Shown here: positions 29,153-31,963 of the stretch, piece by piece | Numbering within the stretch: position 1 is the stretch's first letter | Layout: each line of letters starts with the position of its first letter | Assembly: GCA_003133685.1 (NCBI GenBank) | Contig: PKYQ01000033.1 | Location: 1-51,872 of the forward strand | Length of the DNA stretch: 51,872 nt | Direction: 5' to 3' | DNA from: Acidimicrobiaceae bacterium | GTDB lineage: Bacteria > Actinomycetota > Acidimicrobiia > Acidimicrobiales > RAAP-2 | The notes under the pieces: generated by a model | Told to the model about the DNA's origin: nothing | Database searches by the model: none | The model's input: the letters and a program-made list of their open reading frames with translations, nothing else | Position numbers and translations under genes: made by a program

Positions 29153-29587
29153 TCATCCGGGTGGCAATTCGCCTGATTCGACGAGTTCGCCGCCCACCGC
29201 CACCGTGGCGAGACGATCCAGGAAGAACTGCCAGCCGTTCTCGTGATCACTGATGGCGTCATCGGGCAGGCCACTGTGCACTAATCGAACGAGCGTGTCG
29301 TCACCTTCGGGAATGAGCGTGATCGCGACCTTGGTCGAGCCGGCCGGAATCGGGTGACCCGGTTCGTTCCAGCCAAAGGTGAAGACCACCTTCTCGTTCT
29401 CCACCACTTCCGTGAACTCTCCCAATGCCTGATGATCGCCGACGACATTGACCTTGTAGATGCCGCCGGGACGGGGGTCGAATTCCACGTCGGTGCCGAG
29501 CCACGACTGCATTCCGGGCTCGATCAACAAAGCGAAGATCGTTGACGGTTCGGCCTTGATCAAGACCTCGCGCGTAAGTTCAGCCAT
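29153..29587 (-). CDS. SRPBCC/AHSA1-family protein
   Basis: 144 residues with the START-like hydrophobic-cavity fold: EVLIKAEPSTIFALL at the N-terminus, DPRPGGIYKVN, a Trp-rich strand pair, and the long C-terminal helix with NGWQFFLDRLATV. Members bind hydrophobic ligands or act as AHA1-type activators. It overlaps the upstream ArsR gene by 8 bases; ArsR-AHSA1 pairs are a widespread gene arrangement. Function unknown beyond that. Confidence 0.88.
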   Translation of the reverse strand: MAELTREVLIKAEPSTIFALLIEPGMQSWLGTDVEFDPRPGGIYKVNVVGDHQALGEFTEVVENEKVVFTFGWNEPGHPIPAGSTKVAITLIPEGDDTLVRLVHSGLPDDAISDHENGWQFFLDRLATVAVGGELVESGELPPG

Positions 29588-29903
29588 TGTTGTTGTCCTT
29601 CTTTCGTTGGGCCGCTTCCGCGGCGGTTCTCAGGCGATCGAGGCCCCCGGACCAGTACTGGTCGAGGAACGTGCGAAGTCGTGTCATTTCGTCGACGTTC
29701 GCGACGTACAAGCGACGATGCCCATCTCGGCGTTCACGGACCAGATTCGCCCGTCGCAAGACGCCGAGATGTTGGGAGATTGCCGAACGAGTGACGCCAT
29801 GAAAGTACGACGCGATGACTGAAGCGGGCATTTCGCTCGACCAGACGAGACGCAAGATCTCGCGACGCTTCGGATCGGCGATTGCTTTTAGTGCGGTGTC
29901 CAC
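29580..29903 (-). CDS. ArsR-family transcriptional repressor
   Basis: A 107-residue winged-helix regulator: ALKAIADPKRREILRLVW, then the recognition helix in TRSAISQHLGVLRRANLVRE and the wing RRDGHRRLY. The metal-binding ELCVCDL motif is absent, so it is of the non-metal kind that accompanies AHSA1 genes. It is first in a four-gene operon. A perfect palindrome lies 10 bases before its start codon and is the likely autoregulatory operator. Confidence 0.9.
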   Translation of the reverse strand: MDTALKAIADPKRREILRLVWSSEMPASVIASYFHGVTRSAISQHLGVLRRANLVRERRDGHRRLYVANVDEMTRLRTFLDQYWSGGLDRLRTAAEAAQRKKDNNNG

Positions 29904-29912
29904 CGAATTAGT

Positions 29913-29928
29913 GTAAGCGTTGGCTTAC
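29913..29928 (-). promoter_or_regulatory. Palindromic operator of the ArsR operon
   Basis: GTAAGC (29913-29918), spacer GTTG, GCTTAC (29923-29928) is a perfect palindrome located 10 bases before the ArsR start, in the expected promoter region. A partial further half-site (ACGTAAG) follows at 29927-29933. Confidence 0.6.
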
Positions 29929-29947
29929 GTAAGAAGCAACTTTGGGG

Positions 29948-31849
29948 CTATCCATCTAAGCGGAGTTGACGACCTCGCGGTCGGTCAGTCTCCGTTGTGG
30001 ACGCTTCGTACCGAAGCCTTTCGGCGTGTGCCTTCCTGACGCCCACGTCGCTGAGGAACGGGTCCTCTGCGCGTCCGAGACTGTCGGGGTCGACGTCACT
30101 GGCGATTGCTCTACCAGCCCGATTCGAAGCCTTTCGTCGCGACCAACACGAAGTCCCACGCGAATGGGGCTGGCTGGTTCTCCTCGATTGAGGATCCCCG
30201 GACACCGCGACGAGGGGCGCCTCGGCCCCCGACCAAGCCGCGAGGGCTCGGTCCGTGTCCAGGATTGCTGCGATGGGTGACGATGTAACGGTGACGAAGG
30301 CTGTCAGGTAGGCCGAGTGAAGATCACGGTCGACGGGTGCAGTTTTGAATCCAGAACCGCAAGCCTCACATCGGTGCCAACGTTCGGCGAGGGACTTCTT
30401 CTTCACCGTCCCACAGTGGCAGGTCTGGGTGAGACCCAACCGGCAAGGGACCTTGGTGAAGGACCCTCCGGCGAGGCGCGTCTCGCGTTCGAGAGCTGAG
30501 ATCATCTCACTGGGGGCGAAGTAGGAGATGGACCCGCCCCAGGTGCGCTGCCAGGCCTTGACGGTGATGTCTTCGGTGATGATGTTCGTTCCGCAGCGCT
30601 GGAGAACGGCAATGGCCGCGCGATTGGTGGTGATGACGCGCGATTCGCGATCTCGACGACGCTCGTCGCGTAGGACTTGTCGTCGGTCGCGATAAGCCTT
30701 GGAGGTGGCAAGACGAGTTCCTGGGAGTCGCGATCCCCGGCCCGCGCGCCCGCGGCGGTCGGGTCCGTAGGCGAATGGATTGGTGGCTCGGCGCGAGCGC
30801 TCGAGCGCGCGTTGGGTGCGTCGGCGCTGGCGAGCGACGAAACGGCGTTGTTCAAGTTCTTGCGCGGACGCTCGCACCAGCAACGCGTCAGTGAGTTCAC
30901 CATCGGGGCCGATACCCACTGCCGCCAGGGTCGAGACTCCCAGGTCGACGCCCACGACGCCGTCCGGGGCGCATCCGTAGCGCGAAGGGTCGCGGTAAGA
31001 CTCCTTCGCGCAAAGCAGATGGGCTTCATAGACGAAGTGCTTACGGACTTCACGGCGCACAATCTTCACCTGTCGCCAGGACGTGGGGTCGTTGAGGTAC
31101 CAGCCCTCGCGCGAGGCCTGATCACCTCCCTGGGTCACGACCGGGATCACCAAGTGGCGTGCACGATCGCGCGATGGGTGTAGGTGCAGCGCAAAAACAC
31201 CATCCTCGCTCGTCCGTAAGGAGAGGCCAGTCCACCCGGCGCTTCGGGCCTTCGGTGGCTCTTTCCCTTGGGCTGCGAACTTCTCCACTTCCTCTTCTGT
31301 CGCCGCTGCGCGACCCTCATCGCGGAAGTAACCGTGGAGCACACGGTTCTCCCACGGGCGCGGGACCGTCGGTCGACCGGCGCCCCGAAATAGGTGGGCG
31401 GCGAAGGACTCCCATACCTGCGTAGCGTGCACCAAGGCGCTCGAAGAGGGAACGTGCTCACCGATCCAGTGCGAGTCGCGGCGCAGTTCCAAGATCCTCT
31501 TCGTGAAGTCGTACTCGCTCAGACAGAACTCTTTGCGCAGAGCGTTGAGTGCCGCGTTGCGGGTGCGGCGAGCAGCTGCGTCGTTCACCTCGCCACTCGC
31601 CGAGAGTCCGGTTGACAGAGCGCAAGCGTCACGCCAGCGCGTGGTATGACGCATTGAGTCGAGGTTGGTGAGGGCCCACCGGGTCAGGGCCCTCTCCAGG
31701 TGACCGGCGGCCACGAACGCCACGTCGAGGCGACGACGGGTGTTTTCGTCCGGCATCAGACGACAACGCAGCACGCTGAAGCAGACGGGTTCGTTCGTGG
31801 CCACGTCTGCGATCGTACGGAACGGGTGTGACACGACACGACTCGGCAC
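29948..31849 (-). CDS. Large TnpB-like RNA-guided nuclease homologue (IS605 OrfB group)
   Basis: 633 residues, against about 370-450 for ordinary TnpB. The split RuvC nuclease is intact: Asp302 in GVVGVDLGVSTLAAVG, Glu426 in NIITEDITVKAW, and Asp509 in VDRDLHSAYL (usually DRDxNAA). The zinc ribbon is C477-x-C479...C494-x2-C497. The N-terminus VLRCRLMPDENTRRRLD is the TnpB-type first strand. Residues ~60-290 are longer than usual and ~110 residues follow RuvC-III. No tnpA gene or CRISPR array is nearby. An omegaRNA would be expected at the 3' end of the gene (near 29.9-30.1 kb, minus strand). GTG 31849 is taken as start. A Cas12-type relative is the alternative. Confidence 0.85.
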   Translation of the reverse strand: MPSRVVSHPFRTIADVATNEPVCFSVLRCRLMPDENTRRRLDVAFVAAGHLERALTRWALTNLDSMRHTTRWRDACALSTGLSASGEVNDAAARRTRNAALNALRKEFCLSEYDFTKRILELRRDSHWIGEHVPSSSALVHATQVWESFAAHLFRGAGRPTVPRPWENRVLHGYFRDEGRAAATEEEVEKFAAQGKEPPKARSAGWTGLSLRTSEDGVFALHLHPSRDRARHLVIPVVTQGGDQASREGWYLNDPTSWRQVKIVRREVRKHFVYEAHLLCAKESYRDPSRYGCAPDGVVGVDLGVSTLAAVGIGPDGELTDALLVRASAQELEQRRFVARQRRRTQRALERSRRATNPFAYGPDRRGRAGRGSRLPGTRLATSKAYRDRRQVLRDERRRDRESRVITTNRAAIAVLQRCGTNIITEDITVKAWQRTWGGSISYFAPSEMISALERETRLAGGSFTKVPCRLGLTQTCHCGTVKKKSLAERWHRCEACGSGFKTAPVDRDLHSAYLTAFVTVTSSPIAAILDTDRALAAWSGAEAPLVAVSGDPQSRRTSQPHSRGTSCWSRRKASNRAGRAIASDVDPDSLGRAEDPFLSDVGVRKAHAERLRYEASTTETDRPRGRQLRLDG

Positions 31850-31963
31850 GTACGATTTTGATTAAAGTCCGTTTACGAGAAGCAGGGTTTCGGCGCCCGG
31901 CGATTCGAAGGTCTCGAAATACAATTCGTCGGGTCCGTCATCGGCGAACTGCGTAGTCAACCT

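Follow-up and report, generated by a model that had tools for sequence, protein, structure and literature searches.

TnpB-type nucleases of bacteria have been described together with Y1 or serine-recombinase transposases, and capture by other kinds of DNA transposon has been described for the eukaryotic Fanzors, as far as the consulted portions of two sources go (PMC3627910, PMC10711439). According to the same portions, Fanzor1 was captured by several eukaryotic DNA transposon superfamilies (Bao and Jurka, PMC3627910), and a 2023 study found Fanzor2 captured by transposons with terminal inverted repeats (TIRs) and target site duplications (TSDs) and linked the Fanzors to a single TnpB lineage whose active site is derived (PMC10711439). 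In this study, we report the analysis of a tnpB gene in a 51,872-nucleotide stretch of DNA from an Acidimicrobiaceae bacterium (contig PKYQ01000033.1 of assembly GCA_003133685.1), hereafter called the window, to whose full length all positions refer unless another contig or locus is named. The gene is very probably the sole cargo of a non-autonomous DDE transposon of the IS1595 type, and its nuclease activity, its guide RNA and its mobilisation in trans are predicted. This reading is drawn from sequence comparison, namely from the TIRs that other copies have, from target duplications of 8 bp and an empty site in a relative, from IS1595-like ends, and from purifying selection on the gene and silent-site conservation in its tail.

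The gene (29948..31849, minus strand) is a genuine open reading frame (ORF) of 633 amino acids with a GTG start and a TAG stop, the start codon being uncertain by a few residues since the N-termini differ among copies. Its ratio of nonsynonymous to synonymous substitution rates (dN/dS) was ~0.22 against a related copy in another genome (G282) and ~0.27 against two copies on contigs C10 and C7 of the assembly that contains the window (G000), and because it is this low against all three, the ORF is clearly protein-coding. Purifying selection was also evident between the C10 and C7 copies themselves. The first-pass annotation of the window had read the product as a TnpB-like RNA-guided nuclease with all three RuvC acidic residues and a zinc ribbon that begins CxC, and both of these features of TnpB membership were confirmed. 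The triad consists of D302 in RuvC-I (GVDLGVS, 30944..30946), E426 in RuvC-II (ITEDI, 30572..30574) and D509 in RuvC-III (DRDLHSA, 30323..30325), and the ribbon has the form CxC...CxxC (C477-H-C479...C494-x2-C497, 30359..30421), all on the minus strand. These residues are invariant in an alignment of four full-length members, including members 45-71% identical to the window protein. The gene therefore apparently encodes a large and intact TnpB-type nuclease, which is predicted to cut DNA. It is the only gene recognised inside the window element and, as had been noted, no TnpA gene was recognised there by reading of the ORFs. Two peculiarities ascribed to the protein did not hold. Its length is ordinary among its relatives, since stop-to-stop frames range from 386 to 816 residues in 25 TnpB rows chosen for a tree and two relatives measure ~665 and ~671 amino acids by annotated coordinates. 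The third motif is likewise not unusual, as RD-x-x-[SA]A was matched in 24 of the 25 rows (apparently elsewhere in G298; none in G297), with the SA form being the rule among kin and the AA form occurring only in Methylovirgula.

The gene had also been taken to stand alone, but a search for genomic copies, which the first-pass annotation had proposed, placed it as cargo of a mobile element with defined ends. Five tnpB matches were found in G000: the full window gene, 5' halves on C10 and C7 that run off their contig ends, and 3' tails on C31 and C13 that sit at contig starts. We read these pieces as three copies, namely the window copy, C10/C31 and C7/C13; the C7 and C13 contig ends belong together because, of 61 genomes searched, 31 have their two flanks as one uninterrupted sequence. 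Alignment of the copies revealed a sharp right end directly after the stop codon, where C31, C13 and G282 are nearly identical, and, in C10 and C7, a left end that repeats the right one in inverted orientation. The element is thus bounded by imperfect TIRs of ~24 bp, TGGGG.TATCCATCTAACCGGAGT. The right repeat of the window copy (29943..29966, minus strand) holds the stop codon of the ORF and matches the inverted left ends found elsewhere. With up to two mismatches allowed, the whole G000 assembly contains the repeat pattern five times and always at the end of an element; the reversed pattern, used as control, did not occur. The two repeats of a pair match at 19 to 23 of 24 bases, better than all 300 shuffles in each of the five members tested. 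The repeat supplies the tnpB stop codon (TTAG, ATAG), the window and G312 copies using different ones, and the C7 copy has ~275 extra bases between the left repeat and the gene start (L007:1063-1336) that are missing from the C10 copy.

The same architecture was found in two further genomes. The closest relative, in G282, is 72% identical over 629 of the 633 residues, and G312 has four copies, two of them long (47-49% identity) and two internally deleted. The two deletion derivatives (L049, L050) have different break points; both ends and the 3' RNA region are kept in each, and each has an 8-bp duplication. Presence is patchy: at E<=1e-8, 15 of the 172 genomes of the bacterial family gave matches, and in 11 of these genomes the matches are remote homologues only. 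A search of phages gave no match, no relative was found among 40 candidate stretches from viral contigs, and 30 candidate stretches from genome contigs reduced to four loci, all in G282 and G312. In an automated scan of 21 loci for a repeat with an exact 8-bp duplication, L046 and L047 were recovered and L048 was missed owing to a single additional base; the 18 remote TnpB entries (of which L010 and L060 overlap) yielded nothing convincing.

Exact 8-bp target duplications flank the element at six of seven insertion sites (one in G000, one in G282 and four in G312), whereas only 5 of 3000 random flank pairs reached 8/8 under the same search. At one G312 site (C44) 9 bp are repeated, which makes the 8-bp boundary ambiguous by one base. 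An empty site corresponding to the C10/C31 insertion was found in G299, where the two flanks overlap by exactly 8 bp, ACTCCTCT, and the predicted guide of the C10/C31 copy matches this site over its first 26 nt, as read by eye. The C10 left junction is also found in a second species (G279), with the flank 99% identical over 153 bases; the insertion is therefore older than the split of the two species or has been exchanged between them. A T precedes the duplication at all seven TnpB sites by eye and at five of seven by scripted boundary, and stands at the same position in 4 of 11 non-TnpB IS1595-type elements; no target-adjacent motif, that is, a conserved base 5' of the target, is claimed.

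The vehicle was identified by its ends. The outer part of the repeat, with at most one mismatch, gave 69 matches in 33 of the 172 family genomes (reversed pattern, 5), and 11 of 20 chosen stretches contain inverted pairs, with 0.07-1.8 kb between the starts of the two repeats. Some pairs (e.g. L091-L094, L098-L100) have the inner CCGGAGT of the tnpB elements, and others (L095-L097) differ in the inner sequence. Four of these elements, L091-L094, encode IS1595-family transposases (PF12762, E from 8e-24 to 2e-22), with internal stops in the genes of L093 and L094. Exact 8-bp duplications flank 7 of the 11 non-TnpB pairs, including all four with a transposase, and 8 bp is the usual duplication of IS1595 elements according to the consulted part of PMC8101967. 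Because such similar ends with 8-bp duplications bound PF12762 transposases, and no PF12762 transposase but only tnpB was recognised between the ends of the tnpB element, the tnpB elements are classed as non-autonomous IS1595-type transposons; the shared inverted repeats and 8-bp duplications of the type were found in the sister copies and not in the window copy, which lacks its left end. Other short elements with similar IS1595-type ends (L095-L100 and L106) have no recognised transposase, L095 carrying a GNAT acetyltransferase and L096 a SIMPL/DUF541 protein, or are almost empty (the repeat starts of L106 are 72 bp apart). Together, these form a family of cargo elements and miniature inverted-repeat transposable elements in this bacterial family. 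A second open frame stands beside the transposase in L091 (931-1548, 206 codons) and L094 (714-1175, 154 codons), neither with a Pfam match.

The tail of the gene shows excess conservation at silent sites. Between the window gene and its G282 relative, four-fold degenerate sites are identical at 55 of 67 positions in codons 511-633 and at 105 of 212 in codons 1-510 (Fisher p=2e-6), amino-acid identity being similar in the two ranges. This excess is as expected of an omegaRNA that takes flanking DNA as its guide, and a guide RNA encoded at the 3' end, as had been suggested, is on this ground probable. From the four-fold sites, and from the G312 deletion derivatives that keep this end, the omegaRNA scaffold is predicted to span the last ~120 codons (29943..30319, minus strand), with an uncertain 5' limit. 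The element end and TnpB biology place a candidate 20-nt guide in the flanking DNA (29923..29942, minus strand), the first 8 nt of which would be the target duplication.

From these observations the following mechanism is proposed. An IS1595 transposase supplied in trans would move the tnpB element. The 3' end of the tnpB transcript would yield the omegaRNA, and since the scaffold of this RNA would run into the right inverted repeat, the guide would be the DNA just outside the element, that is, the 8-bp target duplication and the right flank. Each jump would give TnpB a new guide, and TnpB may then cut target alleles without the element, favouring copy-back and spread. The window copy keeps the gene and the predicted RNA end and guide and, having lost its left end, should move no further.

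A number of results weigh against this reading. The NCBIfam model guided_TnpB (NF040570) matched the window protein with E=8.2e-16 and 58 bits, below the curated cut-off of 100; the Pfam matches to Cas12f1-like_TNB and OrfB_IS605 were also below cut-off, as were the G282 and G312 members with the family model. With the single window protein as query, phmmer returned no PDB chain at E<=1, whereas a family profile matched 8iaz_A, a chain named 'Transposase', across the RuvC-II/ribbon part with E=5e-4, and also a TnpB chain with E=0.69. An AlphaFold2 model built from four sequences was poor (predicted local distance difference test score 41). Folding of the 3' end was only mildly better than that of shuffles (z -1.6 and -2.4), and Rfam gave no match at gathering scores. 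No match to a left inverted repeat was found in the window copy, and at the C7/C13 site the duplication is 6/8 only, a value equalled or surpassed by 405 of 3000 random pairs. Lastly, no cognate transposase was found in the assemblies where a tnpB copy was found, which leaves mobilisation in trans a proposal. G000 has three IS1595 transposases, the closest 43% identical to the cognate type; two of them have other inverted repeats, and no flanking repeat pair was found for the third, on C32. A lone 11/12 match to the outer repeat lies ~100 bp from the latter gene (C32 30079-30090; L144:6080-6091), facing outwards and with no partner nearby. Matches to the cognate transposase in G282 and G279 are 30-33% identical, and G312 has none at E<=1e-10.

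Among the alternatives, the one that survives best, although unlikely, is that TnpB is dead cargo that hitch-hikes in an IS1595-type element and has no nuclease function. The unrelated GNAT and SIMPL cargo of IS1595-like elements in this family speaks for it, as does the internal deletion of two of the four G312 copies. Against it stand the catalytic and ribbon residues, which do not vary although members are as little as 45-71% identical to the window protein, the dN/dS of 0.22-0.27 and the additional silent-site constraint at the expected omegaRNA.

The window copy itself appears to have been truncated. Its homology to the C10 copy starts at 31850..31857 (minus strand), with the left repeat missing, and next to it lies the 5' remnant of an alpha/beta-hydrolase gene (31862..31960, minus strand; 32 codons and a stop), which is identical at 19 of 28 residues to the start of a 304-amino-acid ORF of G299 that matches Abhydrolase_1 (E=3.8e-18). 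In G299 this hydrolase gene stands between the same two flanks, a flavin-monooxygenase-like gene and an ArsR-type regulator gene, and in G337 these two flanks are nearly adjacent. The simplest reading is that an element-adjacent deletion took away the left end together with most of the hydrolase gene. With its left end lost, the window copy should be immobile, and it probably is. Directly to the right of the element, the window has genes for an ArsR-type regulator (HTH_5) and an AHSA1-domain protein (29153-29903); the predicted guide lies, by eye, on a palindromic sequence upstream of this regulator gene.

An immobile copy with an intact ORF and active site and a low dN/dS is what might be expected of a domesticated nuclease or an intermediate towards Cas12, as the first-pass annotation had suggested, but we regard this as distinctly improbable. 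The gene belongs to a patchily distributed, multi-copy mobile element, purifying selection also acts between the C10 and C7 copies, and its clade includes transposon-borne TnpBs. The earlier observation that no CRISPR repeats flank the gene was borne out, since no CRISPR-like array was found in 26.0-35.5 kb, where a single two-copy family of 22 nt had its copies 5 kb apart. No Cas12 family model reached its cut-off either (Cas12f2, E=0.13, 11 of 450 bits). Later domestication of this single copy may have occurred, although nothing was seen that shows it.

The TnpB of the IS1595-type element was placed among its relatives in a midpoint-rooted tree of the 25 rows, which has two long outer branches. 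The four inverted-repeat TnpBs form one clade (support 99/98), which groups (99/97) with a set of twelve large TnpBs. Of these, seven belong to the same bacterial genus and two to other parts of the phylum, with one each from Streptomyces, Mycobacterium and Euzebya. The TnpBs that are linked to TnpA and the cyanobacterial ones lie outside both groups. Among the neighbours listed for the sister group, an IS5-like transposase gene is frequent upstream of tnpB, in divergent orientation. When the ORFs of six sister loci were searched with Pfam, four loci reached the cut-off for HTH_Tnp_4, DDE_Tnp_4 or DDE_Tnp_1; one of the other two fell below it, and the last had no match but is ~50% identical to another. 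Inverted repeats beginning CTAAGAG... at both ends exceeded all 300 shuffles in 7 of the 12 loci; the G290 repeat was borderline (matched by 18 of 300 shuffles), and the test failed in G694 and Streptomyces, in G298, whose right end contains Ns, and in G284, whose contig begins at the gene. All five plasmid records with a sister-clade TnpB were also surveyed. A full-length transposase divergent from tnpB and repeats of 20/22 were found in M. abscessus NC_021278.1, where the tnpB frame is annotated as two genes, and in M. intracellulare NZ_CP015269.1. Euzebya NZ_CP031166.1 has a full transposase and repeats of 19/22, M. intracellulare NZ_CP012886.2 has an annotated transposase ORF of 108 amino acids and repeats of 19/22, and the unannotated Streptomyces record has no left repeat. 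Relatives of the Euzebya transposase on plasmids include, among the 40 of 140 records listed, genes annotated as IS5-like IS112 (~40% identity), and the NCBIfam IS5 model matched the M. intracellulare transposase with E=1.6e-15, below its cut-off.

Least probable of all is an ordinary IS200/IS605 or IS1341-like element moved by a Y1 TnpA in trans, its inverted repeats being incidental hairpin-like ends: the protein does belong to the TnpB family, TnpB-only elements are common (consulted text of PMC3627910) and TnpA adjoins tnpB in two relatives outside the clade, but against it stand the long inverted repeats with exact 8-bp duplications, the closely similar ends that bound IS1595 transposases, the description of TnpB-only IS605/IS607-type elements as being without TIRs in that part of Bao and Jurka (PMC3627910), and the absence of such repeats from all four comparators outside the clade, a weak control in which the right end was simply set at the stop codon. 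As refuting its proposal, the first-pass annotation had named membership in a large, ordinary IS605 clade whose ends are defined. The element does have defined ends, but they are those of an IS1595-type DDE transposon.

We lean towards a broader scenario, in which a bacterial TnpB clade with a canonical active site left IS605/IS607 and DDE transposons with inverted repeats captured it on at least two occasions, IS5/IS112-like elements in cis and IS1595-like elements in trans. The right repeat would then be the 3' end of the omegaRNA, each transposition would write a guide that starts with its own target duplication, and the whole would be a bacterial counterpart of the Fanzor captures. In searches of the open-licence PMC library, no report of a bacterial TnpB on IS1595, IS5 or other DDE transposons was found. 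If the scenario is true, the adaptation of a guided nuclease to a new transposase becomes testable in ordinary bacteria, as does the question of whether the nuclease helps cut-and-paste elements to keep or copy themselves, and the scenario would add a family of large TnpBs whose RNA boundary differs.

Compared with known systems, the window element has in common with the TnpB elements of IS200/IS605 and IS607 the RuvC D/E/D residues, the zinc ribbon and a gene whose end coincides with the right element end, which would let a 3' omegaRNA draw its guide from the adjoining DNA; it differs in having no recognised Y1 or serine TnpA, in its long inverted repeats and 8-bp duplications, which mark a DDE vehicle, and in its 633 residues. 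With the IS1595 family (ISXO2-like) it has in common ends closely similar to those of PF12762-bearing elements of the same bacterial family and 8-bp duplications, but it has no transposase gene inside and tnpB is its sole recognised gene. The sister clade, represented by the Euzebya, M. abscessus and M. intracellulare (NZ_CP015269.1) plasmids, is the nearest one and several of its members are on a TIR-bounded DDE transposon; it differs in having the transposase in cis, CTAAGAG... ends, a third motif of RD-[LAI]-VSA where seen, and no clear target duplication among the IS112-like elements searched for one. The lineage from which Fanzors arose has DPG and an alternative Glu, according to the consulted part of PMC10711439, whereas the window TnpB is bacterial and reads GVDLGVS and ITED, which is not the pro-Fanzor signature. 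What it has in common with Fanzor1 and Fanzor2, which the consulted portions of PMC3627910 and PMC10711439 place on Mariner, IS4-like, Sola, MuDr and Helitron elements, is a TnpB-type nuclease carried by other transposons, many of them with TIRs and TSDs.
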